Assembly: GCA_023441125.1 (NCBI GenBank)
Contig: JAEZQV010000169.1
Coordinates: 1 to 6,170 of the forward strand
Length of the DNA: 6,170 bases
Direction of reading: 5' to 3'
Origin: Bacillota bacterium
GTDB taxonomy: Bacteria; Bacillota_C; Negativicutes; Sporomusales; Sporomusaceae
Below are positions 1 to 6,170 of this stretch, one piece after another. The translations under genes and the position numbers were made by a program. The first letter of the stretch is position 1; each line of letters starts with the position of its first letter. The notes under the pieces are model-generated. The model had not been told where the DNA came from. It saw nothing but the letters and a program-made list of their open reading frames with translations, and ran no database searches.

Positions 1-1701
1 GAACGGACCCTAGCCCGGCAAGACCTGGTGCTGAATCCTATGCCCAAAGTGCTTGATCCGGCCTGCGGCTCGGGTAATTTTCTGGTACGGGCCTATGACT
101 GGCTGCTGGCAGAACTGACTGACAAACTGCCGGCGCTTCGAGACCGGTATGCCGCCCGGCAATACTGCATAAGCGACGGACGGGAGACGGCGCTGCTCGA
201 CGGCGGCCGTTACTGGTGCCGGGAGAATCTGCACTATCATATTATCACTCATTGTCTATACGGGGCCGATGTGGATGAACCGGCAGTGGCGTGTGCCAAA
301 ACCAGGCTGCAGGCCAAAAAACCGGGTAACTGGCCGGGAACGGCTACTTGCAATCTCCTTGTCGGCGACAGCTTGTTCAAATGGGAAACTGCCGCCGGTA
401 TTGCCGGGGCGGTACATGAAGACCGCCGGCAGCAACTGGCGGCATTCTGGTCGCGGCAGTATGATTGTGTTGTCGGCAATCCTCCCTATGTCAGCTTCGG
501 TCTCAACCGCGTCGGCAAAATGACTGCTGGTCAGGCGGCCTATTTGCGGACCCATTATCCCCATTCGGCTCAGTATAAGCTGAGTTACTACGCCCTGTTC
601 TTTGAGCGGGGGATTTTAGCGTTGCGGCCTGGCGGCTTTCTGGGATTTATAACGCCTGACAGTTACCTCTTGGGACGGTATTATTCCAGAATTCGCGATT
701 ACATATTGAATACTTGTGCGATACGGGAACTGACATTAATTGAGGACAAGGTATTCCGCGGGGTGTTGGTCGGTATTCCGGCCATTACCATTCTCCAGAA
801 AAATATTGCCGGTCAACCGGCCAAACCGGTGTCGGTGAACAAACTGGGGTGTAAAGGGGCGGCGGCCATATCGCACCAGTACAGCCAGGACTATTTTGCC
901 AGCCAGGCTTATAAGCGGTTTCGCCTGTTTTTTAATGCCCGGGACAAAGCCATTATTGAAAAGATGGAACAAGCGCCATACCGGTTTGGCGACCTAACCA
1001 AAATCAGGACAGGCATGCGCTCGCTGACTGTCCAGGCCGATATCAAAAGCCAAAGCCGGCAGGGAGATACCTGGCGGCCGGGACTAACGTCCTCGGCGCA
1101 AGTATTGCCCTTTACGGCGGTATACCGGGAAGACTGGCTGGATGTTAACCCGGAAAAGCTAAATAAGGGTGGCTGGGATGCCCGGATTATGGCCGGTGCC
1201 AAAATCTTTCTGCGGCAAACCGGCGACCGGCTGATTGCTGCCATTGATCGCTCCGGTTTATACCATCTTAACAATATTCACTCCCTTACCAGCCTGCAGG
1301 CCGGCCTGAGTCTGGAATACCTGGCCTGTGTGCTTAATTCCCGGCTGATGAATTATTATTACCACACCGTGACTCTGGAGAAAGGGCGCTCCATGGCGCA
1401 GGTTGATATCGAAACGGTGGAAAAGCTGCCGCTGCTGTTCGTTTTGCCGCAAGTGGAACAAGTAACGGCTTGGGGGCTGCAATTAGAGTATTTTGCCGGC
1501 CAATTGCATAAACCGGTGCAGGCTGCCCAGCGCGGATTTGATTTAATGGCTGAGTTTACCAGGCTATATAATAGAATGAATCATATCATCTATGACATCT
1601 ATGGTCTGTCTGCTGAGGAGATTGGCTATATTGAGCAACTGGATATCCACTGCGGCCTGGCGGCGACCGGTGAGCCAAAAAAACGCAGCGGGCGCCGGTA
1701 A
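1..1701 (+). CDS. Eco57I/TaqI-type N6-adenine DNA methyltransferase, 5'-truncated
   Basis: The product is predicted to transfer a methyl group from S-adenosylmethionine to adenine N6 in a specific DNA site. The frame is open from the first base (ERTLARQDLVLNPMPKVLDP...), so the true start lies upstream; the GTG at 28 is only an internal codon directly before motif I. Visible landmarks, numbered from that GTG, are SAM-binding motif I DPACGSGNFL at 10-19, a motif II-like acidic segment GADVDEPAVACAK near 79-91, and catalytic motif IV NPPY at 151-154 (bases 478-489). The stretch from about 320 to 480 (IRTGMRSLTV, then LNSRLMNYYYHT and EKLPLL) resembles the TaqI-like C-terminal target-recognition domain. 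No nuclease motif is visible in this part. It could be an orphan methylase, the methylase of a type II system, or the back half of a fused type IIG enzyme; the missing N-terminus decides. The stop codon sits in the loop of the terminator hairpin. Confidence 0.9.
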   Translation, partial: ERTLARQDLVLNPMPKVLDPACGSGNFLVRAYDWLLAELTDKLPALRDRYAARQYCISDGRETALLDGGRYWCRENLHYHIITHCLYGADVDEPAVACAKTRLQAKKPGNWPGTATCNLLVGDSLFKWETAAGIAGAVHEDRRQQLAAFWSRQYDCVVGNPPYVSFGLNRVGKMTAGQAAYLRTHYPHSAQYKLSYYALFFERGILALRPGGFLGFITPDSYLLGRYYSRIRDYILNTCAIRELTLIEDKVFRGVLVGIPAITILQKNIAGQPAKPVSVNKLGCKGAAAISHQYSQDYFASQAYKRFRLFFNARDKAIIEKMEQAPYRFGDLTKIRTGMRSLTVQADIKSQSRQGDTWRPGLTSSAQVLPFTAVYREDWLDVNPEKLNKGGWDARIMAGAKIFLRQTGDRLIAAIDRSGLYHLNNIHSLTSLQAGLSLEYLACVLNSRLMNYYYHTVTLEKGRSMAQVDIETVEKLPLLFVLPQVEQVTAWGLQLEYFAGQLHKPVQAAQRGFDLMAEFTRLYNRMNHIIYDIYGLSAEEIGYIEQLDIHCGLAATGEPKKRSGRR

Positions 1702-1725
1702 CGACACCCTCTGCGTTTCTTTTTT
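1677..1725. terminator. Bidirectional Rho-independent terminator between convergent genes
   Basis: Arms 1681-1692 and 1707-1718 form a 12-bp stem (AAACGCAG, one C/T mismatch, then GGG) around a 14-base loop. On the plus strand the stem runs into TTTCTTTTTT (1716-1725). On the minus strand it runs into a seven-T tract (complement of 1677-1683). It therefore fits the ends of both the methyltransferase (+) and the 55-residue gene (-). The last methyltransferase codons and stop lie inside the hairpin. Confidence 0.8.
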
Positions 1726-1730
1726 GCCGC

Positions 1731-1898
1731 CTACTGTTGGGGGCGGGCTTTACTATCCTTGGTTGGCGGGAGAACGCCGGCTGCTTTTTTGCTGGTCAGG
1801 TTATCCGCGTCTTTCCCGCCGTAAGGACCTTGCTGATTCTGCGCCAGACCCGAGGGGCCATGCGGGGACTTCTGATTGTTGTCGTATATGCTGCCCAT
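1731..1898 (-). CDS. Small Gln/Asn/Pro/Gly-rich hypothetical protein (55 aa)
   Basis: I do not recognise this family. Translation from the ATG at 1898 down to the TAG at 1731-1733 gives a complete 55-residue protein starting MGSIYDNNQKSPHGPSG and ending TKDSKARPQQ. It has no cysteine, tryptophan or hydrophobic segment and is rich in Q, N, P, G, S and K, so it is likely soluble and disordered. There is no signal peptide. The case for a real gene is the near-ideal ribosome site AGGAGGTGAT at 1905-1914 and a terminator 6 bases past the stop. It is convergent with the methyltransferase and divergent from the CAP gene. The composition recalls small spore or coat proteins of Firmicutes, but no known spore-protein motif is visible, so a spore role is speculation. 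Plus-strand frames across it lack comparable signals and look like shadows. Confidence 0.72.
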   Translation of the reverse strand: MGSIYDNNQKSPHGPSGLAQNQQGPYGGKDADNLTSKKAAGVLPPTKDSKARPQQ

Positions 1899-1904
1899 AT
1901 AATA

Positions 1905-1914
1905 ATCACCTCCT
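1905..1914 (-). promoter_or_regulatory. Strong ribosome binding site of the 55-aa gene
   Basis: Read on the minus strand this is AGGAGGTGAT, a ten-base match to the anti-Shine-Dalgarno end of 16S rRNA. Six bases separate it from the ATG at 1898 (ten if only AGGAGG is counted). It is the best ribosome site in the window and the main reason for calling this very short gene. Confidence 0.8.
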
Positions 1915-2008
1915 GGTGGATAGTGTTCCCCATTTGGCTGTTCCGTGTGCGGAAATTTAAGTTTGGCGGCTTGGTTTCTTTACCAGCAGGCTTGCAGACA
2001 AAAAATAC

Positions 2009-2040
2009 TAACATTATGTTAACAGGAAATTAATCATTCA
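2009..2040 (-). promoter_or_regulatory. Weak promoter candidate with overlapping palindrome, 55-aa gene
   Basis: On the minus strand TGAATG (2035-2040) and CATAATG (2012-2018) are separated by 16 bases, loosely like a sigma-G promoter (TGAATA/CATACTA) but one or two bases short in spacing. CATAAT could also be a sigma-A -10 with no good -35. The -10 candidate sits inside a perfect 13-base palindrome, TAACAT-T-ATGTTA (2009-2021), that could be an operator. The leader to the ATG would be about 100 bases long. This is a weak call. Confidence 0.25.
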
Positions 2041-2092
2041 GCGCGAATATAGAGAAAGTCAGATTGTATCATCATTCCGTAATCACCAATTT

Positions 2093-2101
2093 TGCTATAA
2101 T
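2093..2101 (+). promoter_or_regulatory. Extended -10 promoter of the CAP-domain gene
   Basis: TGCTATAAT carries a perfect TATAAT hexamer (2096-2101) preceded by the extended -10 TGn. No good TTGACA exists 17 bases upstream (2073-2078 reads CATTCC), which is tolerable for an extended -10 sigma-A promoter. Transcription would start near 2108, about 30 bases before the ATG. Confidence 0.6.
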
Positions 2102-2139
2102 TTAAAAACAAAACTGGAAAGTAGGTTGGTGTTCAATCT

Positions 2140-2871
2140 ATGAAACTCAAAAAGCAGCTGGCAAAAATGGTTTTTGGTGTAGTAATCATGTCCCTGGTTA
2201 CCACTTCGTTTGGCGGGGCTTGGGCTACCGCGGCCTATGCAGCTTCAGCCGAGGAGGAGACGGCAGTGGAAAATGATGGCGGTAATGCGGCCATCGGCGG
2301 AATTCTGGCGCTTGGTCTGATTGCCGTACTGGCCGGCGGCAAAAAAGGCGGCGGCAGCAAGACTCCTGCCAAGACTACCGATACGGCGGCGCCGGCTCAA
2401 CCGGCTGCCGGTACCACGACGGCCAATACCACCAGTACCGGGTCGGTAGCGACGAAACCGGCGACAACAACAGCTGCTTCTGCCGGACTTACGGCTGACG
2501 AAGCCAAAGCCTTTCAGTTGTTAAATGCCGATCGTGCCGCCAAGGGTTTGCCGGCGCTAAAGGTTAATATGAATCTGGTGCATTTGGCTGAGAATTATGG
2601 CCAGGACATGATTAACCGCAACTATTTTTCGCATTACAATCCGGAGGGACAGTCCCCTTTTGACCGAATGACGCAAGCCGGTATCAGTTACCGCTATGCC
2701 GGCGAGAACCTGGCTATCAACAGCAGCGTCCCGGCTGCTGAAAACGCTTTTATGAACAGCTCCGGACACCGCGCCAATATTTTAAGTCCCAACTATACCG
2801 ATGTGGGCGTCGGTGTACGCAAAGATGCGGCCGGTTCCGTCTATGTGGTGCAGGAATTTATCAGTCAATAA
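2140..2871 (+). CDS. Secreted CAP/SCP-domain protein, YkwD-like (243 aa)
   Basis: An exported protein of the CAP (cysteine-rich secretory/PR-1) superfamily; bacterial YkwD-type members occur widely in spore formers and their biochemical role is mostly unknown. Residues 1-36 form a signal peptide: KLKKQ, a hydrophobic core, and an AYA-A type cleavage site near 34. Residues 48-66 are a second Gly/Ala/Leu hydrophobic stretch ending GGKKGGG, which could be a membrane segment. Residues 72-115 are a Thr/Ala/Pro linker of the kind that crosses cell wall. The CAP domain fills 117-243, with the expected FSHYNPEG (H165), AGENLA (E189), E201 and NSSGHRANIL (H210) making the usual His/Glu cavity. The Trp normally just before N-S-x-G-H-R is Phe here (F204). 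The ribosome site is poor (AGG at 2123-2125), so the start rests on the signal peptide. A single-gene unit is likely. Confidence 0.9.
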   Translation: MKLKKQLAKMVFGVVIMSLVTTSFGGAWATAAYAASAEEETAVENDGGNAAIGGILALGLIAVLAGGKKGGGSKTPAKTTDTAAPAQPAAGTTTANTTSTGSVATKPATTTAASAGLTADEAKAFQLLNADRAAKGLPALKVNMNLVHLAENYGQDMINRNYFSHYNPEGQSPFDRMTQAGISYRYAGENLAINSSVPAAENAFMNSSGHRANILSPNYTDVGVGVRKDAAGSVYVVQEFISQ

Positions 2872-2881
2872 ACACTACGAT

Positions 2882-2923
2882 AAAAGCAAAATCCCGCGCA
2901 AGGGTGCGCGGGATTTTGCTTTT
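2882..2923. terminator. Perfect 19-bp bidirectional terminator
   Basis: Arms 2882-2900 and 2905-2923 are exact inverse complements around the four-base loop AGGG. The GC-rich heart (TCCCGCGCA) is flanked by AAAAGCAAAA and TTTTGCTTTT, giving U-rich 3' ends on both strands. It lies 10 bases past the CAP stop and 2 bases past the stop of the minus-strand Cys-rich gene, serving both. Confidence 0.92.
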
Positions 2924-2925
2924 CC

Positions 2926-3204
2926 TTACATGCATTTAGGACAGTTGCCGTGATGCTGGTGGTAATCGAATTCATGGCCGCAGTAGGGACATATTTTGTA
3001 CAAACGGTGAGTGCAGATTTTATATAGTTTATAGTAGCATTTAAAAGTTTTTACACATTCCTTGGTGGGCATGCATTTCACTTTGGGCATACAGCAGGAC
3101 ATATCCATATCCTGGCAGTCGTCCATCTCGTATTTCTCCATACAGCCGCATTTGTTGTACTCGTCATCACACTTCCAGTAAGGATACTTTTTATAAGCCT
3201 TCAT
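2926..3204 (-). CDS. Cys/Tyr/Lys-rich protein with C-terminal zinc-ribbon pattern (92 aa)
   Basis: No family is recognised with certainty. The protein starts MKAYKKYPYWKCDDE and has 14 cysteines (12, 19, 21, 30, 37, 38, 44, 50, 56, 64, 72, 75, 88, 91), many Tyr and Lys, six Met between 22 and 45, and no hydrophobic segment. The C-terminus has CPYCGHEF followed by NCPKC, a Cx2C-x12-Cx2C zinc-ribbon spacing, with HQHH between. The N-terminal two thirds has irregular Cys spacing, as in cross-linked spore coat or exosporium proteins. The start at 3204 is chosen because AAGGAGGT (3215-3222) lies just upstream. A 19-residue longer reading from ATG 3261 has no ribosome site and would begin at the predicted transcription start. 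A sigma-K/E-like promoter (3268-3295) supports expression in the mother cell. A spore-surface or metal-binding role is inference. Confidence 0.82.
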   Translation of the reverse strand: MKAYKKYPYWKCDDEYNKCGCMEKYEMDDCQDMDMSCCMPKVKCMPTKECVKTFKCYYKLYKICTHRLYKICPYCGHEFDYHQHHGNCPKCM

Positions 3205-3214
3205 CAAAAGCAGT

Positions 3215-3222
3215 ACCTCCTT
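3215..3222 (-). promoter_or_regulatory. Ribosome binding site fixing the Cys-rich gene start
   Basis: Read on the minus strand this is AAGGAGGT, 10 to 11 bases before the ATG at 3204. It selects that ATG over the in-frame ATG at 3261. Confidence 0.8.
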
Positions 3223-3242
3223 ATTATTTAGATGGCTGACTT

Positions 3243-3257
3243 TCACCCCCAGGGTGA
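3243..3257. repeat. Short perfect palindrome TCACCC-CCA-GGGTGA in the Cys-rich leader
   Basis: A 6-bp perfect inverted repeat with a 3-base centre lies just downstream of the predicted minus-strand transcription start (about 3260) and 20 bases before the ribosome site. It could be a small 5' stabilising hairpin in the mRNA or a repressor or activator site. Its sequence does not match an operator I know. Confidence 0.4.
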
Positions 3258-3267
3258 GCATCTGCTA

Positions 3268-3295
3268 TATTCTATGAAAAATACCGGAAAAATGT
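3268..3295 (-). promoter_or_regulatory. Sigma-K/sigma-E-like sporulation promoter, Cys-rich gene
   Basis: On the minus strand ACA (3293-3295), a 16-base spacer, then CATAGAATA (3268-3276). The B. subtilis sigma-K pattern is AC-N16/17-CATAnnnTA, and all fixed positions match. The sigma-E -10 (CATACANT) matches with one change. Predicted start is about 3260, giving a 55-base leader. The match is to known consensus; the regulation itself is inference. Confidence 0.55.
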
Positions 3296-3500
3296 TATGT
3301 AGTTTTCACTATCAGTATGGTTTTTTTCAAATTTCAGCAGGACAAGCAATGAATTTACAGTAGAACGATTCATTTTACATACTTTTAGTATTCCCCAAGT
3401 CATCTTTTACCCGGATGCATCATAGTTATACTTTAGGAATTGCCTGTAGGAACAACAGTCTCAGGATGTACCGCCTATTGCCATTTTTTGATTTGTTGTC
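3296..3500. other. AT-rich intergenic spacer without a recognisable gene
   Basis: This is the centre of the 353-base gap between the divergent Cys-rich and SPOCS genes. Both strands are broken by frequent stops, and I see no ribosome site followed by a credible reading frame, no tRNA and no strong hairpin. Only a weak 7-bp inverted repeat (AATGAAT at 3348-3354, ATTCATT at 3368-3374) and T-rich runs were noted. It could hold binding sites for sporulation regulators. Confidence 0.5.
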
Positions 3501-3528
3501 ACATAAAAATTAGTGCAGGCATATATAT
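3501..3528 (+). promoter_or_regulatory. Sigma-K/E-like promoter of the SPOCS gene pair
   Basis: ACA (3501-3503), a 16-base spacer, then GCATATATAT (CATA at 3520-3523). The spacing equals that of the divergent promoter at 3268-3295. The downstream TA of the sigma-K -10 is offset by one base, so the match is partial. The start would be near 3535, leaving a leader of about 20 bases carrying the ribosome site AAAGGGGGG (3542-3550), 7 bases before the ATG. Confidence 0.42.
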
Positions 3529-3557
3529 AACTAGAATATACAAAGGGGGGAATCTGC

Positions 3558-4232
3558 ATGAATGATAGAGCTATTAACGACAAGTGCACCCTGGGAGCGT
3601 CAACAGGTACAATTATTGTCCGGCAGATAGTGGGAGAAAAGGAAAAGCAAAAAGCTCTGGATATCCACATCGTTGTACCGGATAATAAGCCGTCCATTGA
3701 GCAGATTGTTGATGTGTTTGTAAAAGATGTGGACATCTGCAGCATTGATGTTATTACAGATAAAGTTATTGTCCGGGGAGAATTCGAAATTAAGGCTATT
3801 TATGTAGCCGACCTGCCGGATCGACCTGTTCATGCCGTACAAATTAAACACTACAAATGGACGCAGGATATTGACCTGGCGGGCGCACGCCGCGGCATGG
3901 ATGCCGAAGCCAGTGTGGTCGTCGAGTTTGTTGATTATGATGTTGACCATCACTATCGCGCCTACAAGTATAAAAACTTTGATCCTATTGACTGCGAAGA
4001 AGAAGATGATGATGACACTGACACTGAATGCGACACTGATGAGACCACCGATAGTACCGATACTACTGATACCGACGACGACGACTGCGGGCATCACCAC
4101 CACCACCACCATCATCATCATGCTTGCCGCGAGTTTGACGTATCCGTTATCCTCAAAGTTATAGCCAAAGTTATGACCGACCGCGAAGTAACGATTGGCA
4201 CTAGTACACTGCCAACCACGCCCAAAGGGTAA
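3558..4232 (+). CDS. SPOCS-domain (DUF3794) protein with acidic/His10 insert (224 aa)
   Basis: A predicted spore-envelope protein. Residues 18-130 match the SPOCS/DUF3794 fold, known from SipL, the SpoIVA-interacting coat protein of C. difficile; key stretches are IEQIVDVFVKDVDI (47-60), DVITDKVIVRGEFEIKAIYVADLP (64-87), VHAVQIKHYKW (91-101) and VVVEFVDYD (120-128). The last strand resumes at 191-214 (EFDVSVILKVIAKVMTDREVTIG). Between them is an insert of about 60 residues absent from the downstream paralog: YRAYKYKNFDP, then residues 147-176 made only of D/E (19), T/S (10) and one C, then CG, ten His (179-188) and AC. Cys 146, 158, 177 and 190 bracket the tracts. No signal peptide or membrane segment, consistent with mother-cell cytoplasmic assembly. 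Likely co-transcribed with the next gene 35 bases on. Metal binding is inferred from the His/Asp/Cys content. Confidence 0.88.
   Translation: MNDRAINDKCTLGASTGTIIVRQIVGEKEKQKALDIHIVVPDNKPSIEQIVDVFVKDVDICSIDVITDKVIVRGEFEIKAIYVADLPDRPVHAVQIKHYKWTQDIDLAGARRGMDAEASVVVEFVDYDVDHHYRAYKYKNFDPIDCEEEDDDDTDTECDTDETTDSTDTTDTDDDDCGHHHHHHHHHHACREFDVSVILKVIAKVMTDREVTIGTSTLPTTPKG
3996..4121 (+). repeat. Imperfect trinucleotide tract (GAA/GAY/ACY then CAY x10) in coding DNA
   Basis: Codons GAA x3, GAT/GAC x4, mixed ACY/GAY, GAC x4, then CAT, CAC x5, CAT x4 (4092-4121). The low-complexity code gives the acidic and His tracts of the first SPOCS protein. All repeats are in three-base units, so replication slippage would lengthen or shorten the tract without breaking the frame. 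Codons are mixed within each run, which points to some selection on the residues and not only recent slippage. Confidence 0.75.
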
Positions 4233-4253
4233 GGGTGAACAGGCATACCAGAA

Positions 4254-4264
4254 AAGGGGGGGAG
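4254..4264 (+). promoter_or_regulatory. Ribosome binding site fixing the start of the SPOCS-SH3 gene
   Basis: AAGGGGGGGAG lies immediately before ATG 4268. The purine run supports this ATG over the in-frame GTG at 4235, which sits only 2 bases after the previous stop and has the ribosome site inside its own coding sequence. Confidence 0.7.
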
Positions 4265-4267
4265 ACA

Positions 4268-5224
4268 ATGGACGAAGATAAAACAAGGGTGGTTTCAGCC
4301 TCGACCGATACCTTGAATACCACGACAAAATCCGTTACAGGCACGACTACCGTAGACAGCTCCGAACTCGTATGCGGCTGCCCGGAACCCGGGCCGGAAA
4401 CCATTGAGATCGAACAGGTCTTAGGGGCCGAAATGTCGCAGCGGGTCGTCGAACTGGATATGTTCGTTCCTGCAGGGGAACCTGACATTCAACAGGTTAT
4501 TGACGTTTATGTAAAAGATTTGGAAATAAAGAAGATTGACGTAATCCGGGATAAGGTTATCGTCCGCGGCGATTTAGAGGTCAAAGTCATGTATGTGGCC
4601 GATTTGCCGGATGAGCCGGTTCATGCCTATGAAAAGAAACATATCCGCTGGACCCGGGATATTGAGGTAGATGGTGCCGAACCGGACATGAAAGCTACCG
4701 CCGACGTAGCGGTTGAATTTGTCGACTACGACTTTCATCGCCACCATGATCCGCGTAAGGTACACATTACTATTGTACTTAAGGTCTGGGTTAGAGTAGT
4801 AACTACCACCCAAATGGATGTGTATGCTATGAGTCCTGTTGATGAAGTCGGGATCGTGGAAAGCACTACCGCCAGCAATTCCAACTCGGATCACGCCAGT
4901 TCCAGCCAGTTTGCCAGCGACATGACATCGGCTTCCGAAACGGGCGGCGGCAATATAGAAGGCTATGGTGAGCAAAATGTTGTTGTCACCGGGCCGATGA
5001 CCCCGACGGCAGGTACACCTACCGGTATCAGCGGAACCGTAACCGTCAGCGGCGATAAGGTTAATATCCGCAGCGGGCCGGGCACTAATTTCCCGATCGT
5101 CACCAAGGTAAACCGCGGGACTACGCTAACTGTGAAAGAGCAGGCCTTTGGCTGGTATAAAGTAGTCCTGACCGACGGCACAACGACTGGCTGGATTGCC
5201 AGCTGGCTGGTAAGTGGTACGTAA
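4268..5224 (+). CDS. SPOCS-domain (DUF3794) protein with C-terminal SH3b domain (318 aa)
   Basis: A predicted spore-envelope assembly or anchoring protein, paralogous to the upstream gene. Residues 1-45 are Thr/Ser-rich with a CGC motif (36-38). The SPOCS domain spans about 46-187: IQQVIDVYVKDLEIKKIDVI (74-93), DKVIVRGDLEVKVMYVADLPDEPVHA (95-120), VAVEFVDYD (147-155), then FHRHHDP (156-162) where the paralog carries its large insert, and VHITIVLKVWVRVV (165-178). Residues 188-253 form a Ser/Asn/Gly/Thr-rich linker. Residues 255-316 are a bacterial SH3 domain: VNIRSGPGTNFPIVTKVNRG, WYKVV, TGWIASWLV. SH3b domains usually bind cell-wall peptides or glycans. SipL and SpoVID carry LysM at this place, so the SH3b may be the peptidoglycan (cortex) anchor; that is inference. 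It follows the first SPOCS gene by 35 bases and is ended by a strong hairpin, so the two form an operon. Confidence 0.9.
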   Translation: MDEDKTRVVSASTDTLNTTTKSVTGTTTVDSSELVCGCPEPGPETIEIEQVLGAEMSQRVVELDMFVPAGEPDIQQVIDVYVKDLEIKKIDVIRDKVIVRGDLEVKVMYVADLPDEPVHAYEKKHIRWTRDIEVDGAEPDMKATADVAVEFVDYDFHRHHDPRKVHITIVLKVWVRVVTTTQMDVYAMSPVDEVGIVESTTASNSNSDHASSSQFASDMTSASETGGGNIEGYGEQNVVVTGPMTPTAGTPTGISGTVTVSGDKVNIRSGPGTNFPIVTKVNRGTTLTVKEQAFGWYKVVLTDGTTTGWIASWLVSGT

Positions 5225-5233
5225 GCCGCACAG

Positions 5234-5280
5234 GGGAAAACGACCCAGGGATAATAGACATCCCTGGGTATTGTTTTCCC
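5234..5280 (+). terminator. Long hairpin terminator after the SPOCS operon
   Basis: The outer stem GGGAAAAC (5234-5241)/GTTTTCCC (5273-5280) encloses an inner perfect 10-bp stem (5243-5252/5260-5269, ACCCAGGGAT) with loop AATAGAC; the two are joined by a small internal loop. The U-rich part (ATTGTTTT) lies just after the inner stem, so the inner stem plus this tract works as a classical terminator. It begins 9 bases after the stop. Confidence 0.8.
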
Positions 5281-5290
5281 AAAGGTATGA

Positions 5291-5343
5291 CTTGCCGCTA
5301 GCTAAAAGCAGTGCCGGGTTTTCAGCCGCAGTCGGGCGGCAAG
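5291..5343. repeat. 8-bp inverted repeat upstream of the HipA-like kinase
   Basis: CTTGCCGC (5291-5298) and GCGGCAAG (5336-5343) are exact inverse complements with 37 bases between. The enclosed sequence is GC-rich and could fold further. It lies 50 bases before the kinase start, near a poor -10-like CATAAT (5355-5360) with no matching -35. It may be a leader structure, a protein site or chance. Confidence 0.3.
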
Positions 5344-5392
5344 CCGTGTTGCTGCATAATTTCTAATGGTAAGTAAGAGAGGAGTTGGCCTG

Positions 5393-6170
5393 ATGTTTCG
5401 GGCACTGGCATACATAGGTCCGGTTGGCCTGGGGGCAACTTCGCCCCAGCTGTTCCGGGCCGAAACTGTTAGCGGGGAACGCAAAATCTGTGTTGTGAAG
5501 CTTTCTGCCAACCGGTTGGGAGCCAAGGTTCTGGTCAACGAACTGTTGGCCGCCCGGTTTGGCCAGTGGCTTAAGTTATGTTTTCCGGCCGGCGGATTGA
5601 TCGATATTCCGGCTGAAGTCCTGAGTAAAAGCCGGCGGCTGACAGCCGCCGGGGTTAAGCCGGGCTGGCATTTTGGCTGCGAATATTTAAAGGGAGTCAG
5701 CTATGTGACCAAGTATAATCTGCACCGGGCCGTCAATAAAGAACAAATGGCCGGAGTTATGTTATTCGACCATTTGTTTCATAATCCGGACCGTACCGAG
5801 AACCGCAAAAATCTCTTGATTCGCAAAGAACGGGACGGGTATAAACTGTATGCAATTGACAATTCCCATTTATTCCGCCGCGGCAAGTGGACTATTGATA
5901 TGCTAAGGGATTTTACCGAAAAGATAACGCTGAACCACCGGCGTTCGTATGGGGTACTGCTGAAGTATTACCTGCAGCCGGAGCATTTTTTTCGGTATGC
6001 CCGGCAGGTTACAGCCCTTGACCGGGACACATTTGTCCGGTTGATCGAAGAAGTTCCCCGGGAATGGCTGCCTGATAACTGTGAACGTCAGGCTTTGCTT
6101 GATTTTCTTGCCGCCCGCAGCCAAAAAGCCGACTGGGTGGCGCAGCGCTTAAGCGAGCTAATCCCTGATG
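5393..6170 (+). CDS. HipA-like kinase (HipA_2 family), 3'-truncated
   Basis: The reading frame runs from ATG 5393 to the window edge without a stop (259 codons), so the end is missing, though family members are near this length. It resembles the HipA_2 group of HipA-related kinases: N-terminal GLGATSPQLFRA (12-23) as the nucleotide loop, CVVKLSANRLGAKVLVNELLAARF (33-56) with the likely ATP lysine K36, LFDHLFHNPDRTENRKNLLI (124-143) as the catalytic loop with D133, and AIDNSHLF (154-161) with D156 as the metal-binding Asp. After 165 comes a helical C-terminal region. Classical HipA phosphorylates glutamyl-tRNA synthetase with HipB as antitoxin; this group is usually found alone and its substrate is unknown. 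AGAGGAG (5378-5384) sits 8 bases before the ATG, favouring it over an in-frame ATG at 5366. No HipB-like gene is seen upstream. Promoter not clear. Confidence 0.8.
   Translation, partial: MFRALAYIGPVGLGATSPQLFRAETVSGERKICVVKLSANRLGAKVLVNELLAARFGQWLKLCFPAGGLIDIPAEVLSKSRRLTAAGVKPGWHFGCEYLKGVSYVTKYNLHRAVNKEQMAGVMLFDHLFHNPDRTENRKNLLIRKERDGYKLYAIDNSHLFRRGKWTIDMLRDFTEKITLNHRRSYGVLLKYYLQPEHFFRYARQVTALDRDTFVRLIEEVPREWLPDNCERQALLDFLAARSQKADWVAQRLSELIPD

Follow-up and report, generated by a model that had tools for sequence, protein, structure and literature searches.

The stretch of DNA analysed here, which we call the window, comprises 6,170 nucleotides (contig JAEZQV010000169.1, positions 1 to 6,170, forward strand, assembly GCA_023441125.1) from a bacterium of the Sporomusaceae within the class Negativicutes. 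It encodes a small protein of the SPOCS (SpoVID-CotE-SipL) family in which a hairpin is extended by a 60-residue insert rich in aspartate, histidine and cysteine. The composition of the insert, and not its sequence, is kept among related spore-formers, which suggests that their spore coat binds metal ions via this loop. The best explanation, to which we give about even credence, is a coat scaffold made in the mother cell, carrying a metal-binding, pH-sensitive loop similar to the tail of SlyD that would probably be used in coat assembly. The features on which this explanation rests are all located on the forward strand:

3558..4232 (+): SPOCS protein with the Asp/His/Cys loop, 224 amino acids (open reading frame, PF12673 match, homologs)
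3900..3941 (+): strand beta5, residues 115-128, first arm of the hairpin (AlphaFold2 model)
3948..4127 (+): insert, residues 131-190, predicted disordered loop between beta5 and beta6
3957..3974 (+): collar RAYKYK, residues 134-139, which opens the insert (A135 invariant; R134, Y136, K137 and K139 at least 90% conserved in alignment A1, which holds 92 of the 120 homologs described below)
3993, 4029 and 4086 (+): Cys146, Cys158 and Cys177 of the insert
3996..4085 (+): acidic tract, residues 147-176, 30 residues of D, E, T and S with one Cys (sequence)
4092..4121 (+): His10, residues 179-188 (codons CAT, CAC x5, CAT x4)
4125..4127 (+): Cys190, right before the REF of the last strand (sequence)
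4131..4196 (+): strand beta6, residues 192-213, second arm of the hairpin, past the Pfam profile (AlphaFold2 model)
4268..5224 (+): tandem paralog, SPOCS plus SH3_3 domain (PF12673, PF08239), with the short His-containing turn FHRHHDPRK

An earlier note on this DNA had described an insert of about 60 residues at 3948..4127, with 30 residues drawn from D, E, T, S and C followed by Cys-Gly-His10-Ala-Cys. The translation bears this out. C177 and G178 follow the acidic tract, then come His179-188, A189 and C190, and the four cysteines that had been noticed around the tracts are indeed present at 146, 158, 177 and 190. In A1, the C177 column is at least 90% conserved. The computed net charge of the window insert is -21.2 at pH 8 and -6.6 at pH 5. 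In a Pfam scan of the 224-residue protein, PF12673 was the only family found (42 bits against a cut-off of 23.6, residues 47-129), with one SPOCS match, no LysM and no FKBP-type prolyl isomerase domain. This is hence not itself a SlyD. Among the matches listed, the nearest named homologs belong to Sporomusa aerivorans, with 82% identity to the insert protein and 85% to the protein next to it; the ortholog of S. ovata DSM 2662 is SOV_02100.

The earlier note had also proposed structure prediction as a check on whether the insert forms a loop. In the AlphaFold2 model (92 sequences, mean predicted local distance difference test score (pLDDT) 75.6), strands cover residues 17-39, 47-66, 69-84, 91-106, 115-128 and 192-213. 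No strand was predicted between the last two, and pLDDT values across residues 131-190 ranged from 47 to 65 in ten-residue blocks. The model of the tandem paralog likewise shows six strands in this order, but with 142-156 and 164-186 linked by a 7-residue turn, and the paralog reads VEFVDYDFHRHHDPRKVHITIVLKV at this site, continuous as had been claimed. Since a low-confidence insert lies between two confident strands where the paralog has a short turn, the prediction is that the insert forms a disordered loop within the beta5-beta6 hairpin. Whether it lies inside a SPOCS domain, as the earlier note had put it, depends on the definition: structurally it does, as the predicted sheet resumes with strand 192-213, whereas by Pfam it does not, since the SipL profile (78 positions) reaches position 77 at residue 129 and the insert begins where the profile ends. 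A Foldseek search with the model of the insert protein gave no match at E<=0.001. With the paralog model one match was obtained at this threshold, and the best rows were mostly SH3-type domains; because the aligned ranges fall in its SH3 part, the paralog model does not test anew a possible resemblance to the alpha-crystallin (small heat-shock) fold. A sequence search of solved structures with the paralog gave no match.

To assess conservation, we relied on two samples. The homolog set held 328 proteins at E<=1e-3, of which the best 120 were evaluated; figures from these 120 are biased towards the query. Because they represent the best third only, 300 further genomes were drawn from the class. 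The A1 profile matched in 53 of them and the insert could be parsed in 52, the ortholog at locus L067, ended by a contig edge, being left out. An insert is present at this position in every one of the 120 listed homologs (44-82 residues, median 61) and of the 52 parsed orthologs (27-156 residues; at locus L058 the length is 45 or 62, depending on the end pattern used). The suspicion that the insert might be strain-specific or misassembled thus falls away, since many independent assemblies contain it. What is peculiar to the window strain is the exact His10 and the Thr-rich acidic tract; most relatives use mixtures of D, H, C and N.

The composition of the insert follows a clear pattern in the 120 listed homologs. 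After removal of the first 14 and last 2 residues, the remaining variable part consists of 36% D, 26% H, 10% C, 7% N and 6% E. Together, D, E, H, C and N account for 85% of this part versus 20% of the core. Acidic residues precede histidines (mean relative positions 0.38 for D and 0.71 for H), and each insert contains 2-9 cysteines. Runs of at least 4 histidines were found in 118 homologs, of at least 6 in 88 and of at least 10 in 3, including that of the window. In 118 of the 120, 3-8 residues separate the end of the longest run from the Phe of the final strand. Among the 52 class-wide orthologs, 44 show at least four consecutive histidines, all have at least two cysteines and 50 contain at least 20% Asp plus Glu. 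The median net charge of the inserts was computed as -19.6 at pH 8 and -3.5 at pH 5. In its make-up the insert thus corresponds to a segment of the SlyD type: disordered by prediction, rich in His, Cys, Asp and Glu, and variable among orthologs. For the metal-binding loop envisaged in the earlier note this amounts to partial support, in that the loop is real, conserved, predicted to be disordered and of SlyD-like composition.

Codon usage bears on whether protein or DNA repeats are maintained. Over 60 distinct inserts, adjacent His codons were the same in 174 and different in 187 cases (n=361), with 204 same expected from local usage; for adjacent Asp codons, 203 were the same and 193 different (n=396), with 235 same expected. 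Codons are thus mixed above expectation, which indicates that what is maintained in these tracts is the protein and not a DNA repeat. A pure DNA microsatellite is disfavoured by this mixing, despite the clumped codons of the window His10 itself. Slippage probably supplies new length variants, the composition being held. The DNA pattern CAY x6 gave one match in each of two Sporomusa genomes, none in a third and three matches at two places in a fourth; as the reversed control pattern occurred 0-2 times per genome, these counts show rarity only.

The protein is linked to sporulation by its distribution and by its upstream region. SpoIVA (PF09547) scored above its cut-off in 51 of the 300 class genomes and A1 matched in 53, with 49 shared, although these genomes are related to one another, so that a Fisher value calculated from the counts is no true probability. 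Within the class, the insert protein hence follows the presence and absence of sporulation genes, as judged by SpoIVA, and the insert is conserved through 49 of the 51 SpoIVA-bearing genomes. Two elements precede the gene:

3500..3530 (+): candidate promoter of the mother-cell type, CACATA (3500-3505) and CATATATATAA (3520-3530), 14 bases apart
3542..3551 (+): ribosome-binding site AAAGGGGGGA (sequence; similar upstream of orthologs)

In 52 of 53 genomes the motif CATATATAT[AG] lies close to where the open frame begins, and in 48 it has CACA[T/C] ahead of it; the single genome missing the motif is represented by locus L050, whose frame opens at the edge of the examined stretch. In C. difficile, the -10 boxes shared by sigma-E and sigma-K are described as including CATATTAT/CATATAAT, and those at -35 as ATA or AC (PMC3789822). 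The promoter pattern gave one match in each of four Sporomusa genomes, just upstream of the insert gene, and with one place each it defined no wider regulon there. From these sequences we infer expression in the mother cell, and the domain family, promoter and distribution together would place the protein in the coat.

In the explanation that we favour, the protein would be made in the mother cell as a spore-coat scaffold of SPOCS fold, and the tip of its beta5-beta6 hairpin would have been extended into a disordered Asp/His/Cys loop before the sampled spore-forming Negativicutes diverged. The loop may then act like the metal tail of SlyD, offering divalent and transition metals a large number of sites of weak to moderate strength, in which Asp and Glu would be the hard and His and Cys the softer ligands. 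Its charge would drop strongly upon protonation of the histidines. Most likely, it would aid assembly or hardening of the coat via metal-bridged, pH-dependent contacts between neighbouring molecules, one possible partner being the SH3 paralog, in which the corresponding turn usually contains histidine too. Both metal binding and cross-linking are deduced from composition and analogy.

Several observations weigh against this explanation. Eight of the 52 orthologs lack a His run (L047, L048, L054, L057, L058, L060, L063 and L068), and their loops include E/P-, P/C-, E/A- and D/C-rich types, so that a metal function based on histidine only cannot be universal. On the core tree, the state without a His run requires 9 changes, of which only 2 are forced by well-supported branches, in a tree of 119 columns with many unresolved forks and with the second paralog included; His clustering is therefore not indispensable. 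The residues are so variable that no fixed site exists. In the window itself the His10 codons are clumped (7 of 9 neighbours are the same), and slippage may have lengthened this run. A1 was found without detected SpoIVA in four genomes (G034, G041, G070 and G125) and SpoIVA without A1 in two (G029 and G055). Lastly, the likeness of the upstream element to the published C. difficile boxes was judged by eye. What is constant is a long loop with acidic residues and cysteines, and the His cluster is the majority state, which was probably lost or replaced more than once.

Similar loops exist in other SPOCS proteins. A second SPOCS paralog in Sporomusa genomes, which forms a clade of 10 rows on the core tree, has a long insert at the same hairpin that is rich in D/Y/C and then in K/H/C. 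Three of its copies are:

L012:1914-2681, second paralog, own CATATATAT box upstream
L015:2176-2970, second paralog, own CATATATAT box upstream
L016:1941-2645, second paralog, own CATATATAT box upstream

In the SH3 paralog, 112 of 120 copies could be parsed and the other 8 were read by eye. The corresponding site measures 9-10 residues in 103 of the 112 parsed copies (most often DFHCHHDRRK) and contains His in 95, while an expanded H/D-rich loop was found in 11 of all 120 (9 parsed, 2 by eye). At locus L069 (genome G023) a divergent, long-branched pair carries a His-rich loop at this site in each member, the insert gene as well as the SH3 paralog, with about 40 residues in the latter.

In a draw from the phylum, 125 of 398 genomes matched the profile, G001 included. 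From the 124 others we examined 28, mostly the best-scoring, and took them as outside the class because of the score gap (at most 92 bits versus 385 for G001). Their SPOCS proteins comprise 107 hairpins, one of which is cut by the end of the stretch, and a His-rich insert occurred in just 1 of the 106 readable ones. It reads HDHHDHHDHHDHHD and lies in the first SPOCS hairpin of L097:592-2298 (-), a SipL proper of another lineage with three SPOCS domains and a LysM. This SipL also has a poly-Glu linker. The same genome encodes L096:756-2099 (-), which, like L095:785-2101 (-), combines FG-GAP repeats and one SPOCS domain with a His/Asp-rich C-terminal end of the HDKYHDK type.

How do other explanations deal with these observations? 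The likeliest of them is a charge-only glue, a pH-switchable polyampholyte of Asp versus His that drives association of coat proteins when protonated, metals being incidental. It agrees with the acidic and His parts standing in order and with the shift of about 16 units in median net charge from pH 8 to 5. There is also a precedent in the B. subtilis crust, where the His-rich tail of CotY is reported to mediate docking on CotVW filaments at pH 6, whereas at pH 8 it does not (PMC12630357). Electrostatics, however, needs no cysteine, and the 2-9 cysteines of all 120 listed inserts, together with the two or more in each of the 52 orthologs, those lacking a His run included, make this account on the whole unlikely.

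Alternatively, along the lines of the metal sponge or sensor that the earlier note had suggested, the loop might serve as a sponge or store that accumulates metals or sequesters them in the envelope of the spore, for purposes of protection, storage or sensing, and has no structural role. Its ligand-rich composition, as described for SlyD and for the His-rich tail of UreE (PMC7055735), would suit this purpose, as would further H/D/C-rich proteins of the same genomes. One of these, encoded in a SPOCS gene cluster of Sporomusa sp. KB1 (L013:2401-4308), is a 635-residue SPOCS protein (PF12673, 27.3 bits) in which about 43 copies of a 24-base repeat yield octapeptides of the CKPHHNDD/E type. Another belongs to the YmaF family (L079:1438-1986, also L077 and L078; PF12788, tested on L079), with His6-7 near its start and an acid- and Cys-rich C-terminal part, which in L077 contains DDPC repeats. 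The YmaF gene accounts, in three of the four Sporomusa genomes, for the His6-coding match that lies outside the SPOCS gene. On the other hand, no transporter or known metallo-enzyme was seen among the scanned window genes or those kept in related loci, and the loop is located on a scaffold fold. We thus consider a sponge without structural role rather unlikely. A role in coat assembly ranks a little above a sponge for the divalent cations of the spore, for two reasons: the fold that carries the loop is of the scaffold type, and the reported docking of the CotY His tail offers a precedent (PMC12630357).

Neutral expansion of simple sequence, with a hairpin tip that tolerates anything hydrophilic and slippage filling it, could account for the great variation in length and sequence (27-156 residues among 52), for internal repeats in some inserts (for example at L004 and L045), for the E/P- or P/C-rich inserts of some lineages and for the clumped His10 codons of the window. 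Yet synonymous codons are mixed over the 60 inserts, the bias towards D, E, H, C and N and the position of the His run are maintained, the SH3 paralog shows a parallel H/D expansion, and a single His-rich insert was found among the 106 readable hairpins of the 28 other genomes. Neutrality is accordingly an improbable account. A redox clamp, in which the loop cysteines form disulfides that cross-link the coat and D and H are a hydrophilic spacer, would fit the cysteines in all counted inserts and the Cys-rich neighbouring gene, but is very improbable since the cysteines vary from 2 to 9 without fixed spacing and the His run would go unexplained.

Returning to the metal-bridged coat scaffold, the loops of the other proteins allow a broader and more tentative proposal. 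SPOCS proteins might be a recurrent platform for metal-coordinating low-complexity loops, and diderm spore-formers might build a metallo-coat whose bridges would be divalent metals acquired in the course of sporulation; we regard this as possible and still doubtful. Asp/His/Cys loops at hairpin tips would then have arisen or expanded several times, in the insert gene, the second paralog, the SH3 paralog and a SipL elsewhere, and the CKPHHNDD-repeat SPOCS proteins and His/Asp-Cys YmaF proteins would be metal-bridged as well. If so, metal loading would set coat assembly and possibly also release at germination.

The gene neighbourhood is partly kept. Upstream of the insert gene and divergent from it lies one further small gene:

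2926..3261 (-): Cys-rich small protein, coat-like by eye (found by tblastn at 8 of the 11 related loci)

This protein ends in CPYCGHEFDYHQHHGNCPKCM, which by eye resembles a zinc ribbon, and it matched no Pfam family above its cut-off. The order that is kept reads CAP protein, Cys-rich protein, insert SPOCS, SPOCS/SH3 and HipA-like kinase. Across 11 related loci the SH3 paralog was found in 11, the HipA-like protein in 10, and the CAP and Cys-rich proteins in 8 each. Two loci (L004 and L009) begin too near the insert gene to show upstream genes, and at L006 the CAP and Cys-rich genes were not found in the 2.7 kb upstream of it. The HipA-like kinase (PF20613) occupies window positions 5366-6169, and follows the SPOCS pair in 10 of the 11 loci. 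An Eco57I-type methylase (window 1-1701) is located upstream in 4 of the 11.

The open-licence literature that we searched contained no description of this loop, nor of such a coat protein in diderm spore-formers (Negativicutes), and no function for single-domain SPOCS proteins. The loop is thus a variation on a known spore-protein fold, undescribed in that literature. A loop kept in composition and free in sequence through 49 of 51 SpoIVA-bearing genomes provides a directly testable handle on possible metal coordination in the coat. In addition, a long run of histidines that occurs naturally in a spore protein would be useful for understanding binding of the kind exploited in immobilized metal affinity chromatography (IMAC) in vivo.

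How does the insert protein compare with known systems? By profile it shares its domain with the SPOCS/SipL family, and it is co-distributed with SpoIVA in spore-forming members of the class. SipL is described as having three DUF3794 (=PF12673) domains and a LysM (PMC6436350). The C. difficile type, with several SPOCS domains and a C-terminal LysM that binds SpoIVA, differs from the insert protein, in which a single SPOCS domain and no LysM were found; the insert protein is therefore not a SipL of this type. It has a long D/H/C hairpin loop, in place of which short turns are present in the tandem paralog and in nearly all SPOCS domains sampled from other lineages.

By anatomy, we take the SlyD tail to be the closest functional analogue. 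The E. coli tail is described as an unstructured segment with much His, Cys, Asp and Glu that varies among SlyD proteins and can bind up to 7 Ni(II) (PMC7055735). As far as the E. coli and H. pylori tails are described there, disorder (predicted here), richness in these four residues and variability among orthologs are shared with the insert. SlyD, however, has a C-terminal tail with measured metal binding, and the insert is an internal loop on a SPOCS fold, known here from sequence. The closest precedent in spores appears to be CotY with CotVW. Common to both, according to the published account of the crust, would be a His cluster on a spore-surface protein (a location deduced here), a negatively charged partner and pH-dependent association, the last by analogy in the case of the insert; divalent ions are reported to fragment the CotVW filaments (PMC12630357). 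The CotY stretch is short (KKHHHNG) and C-terminal, whereas the insert is a 60-residue internal loop that unites acidic and His parts.
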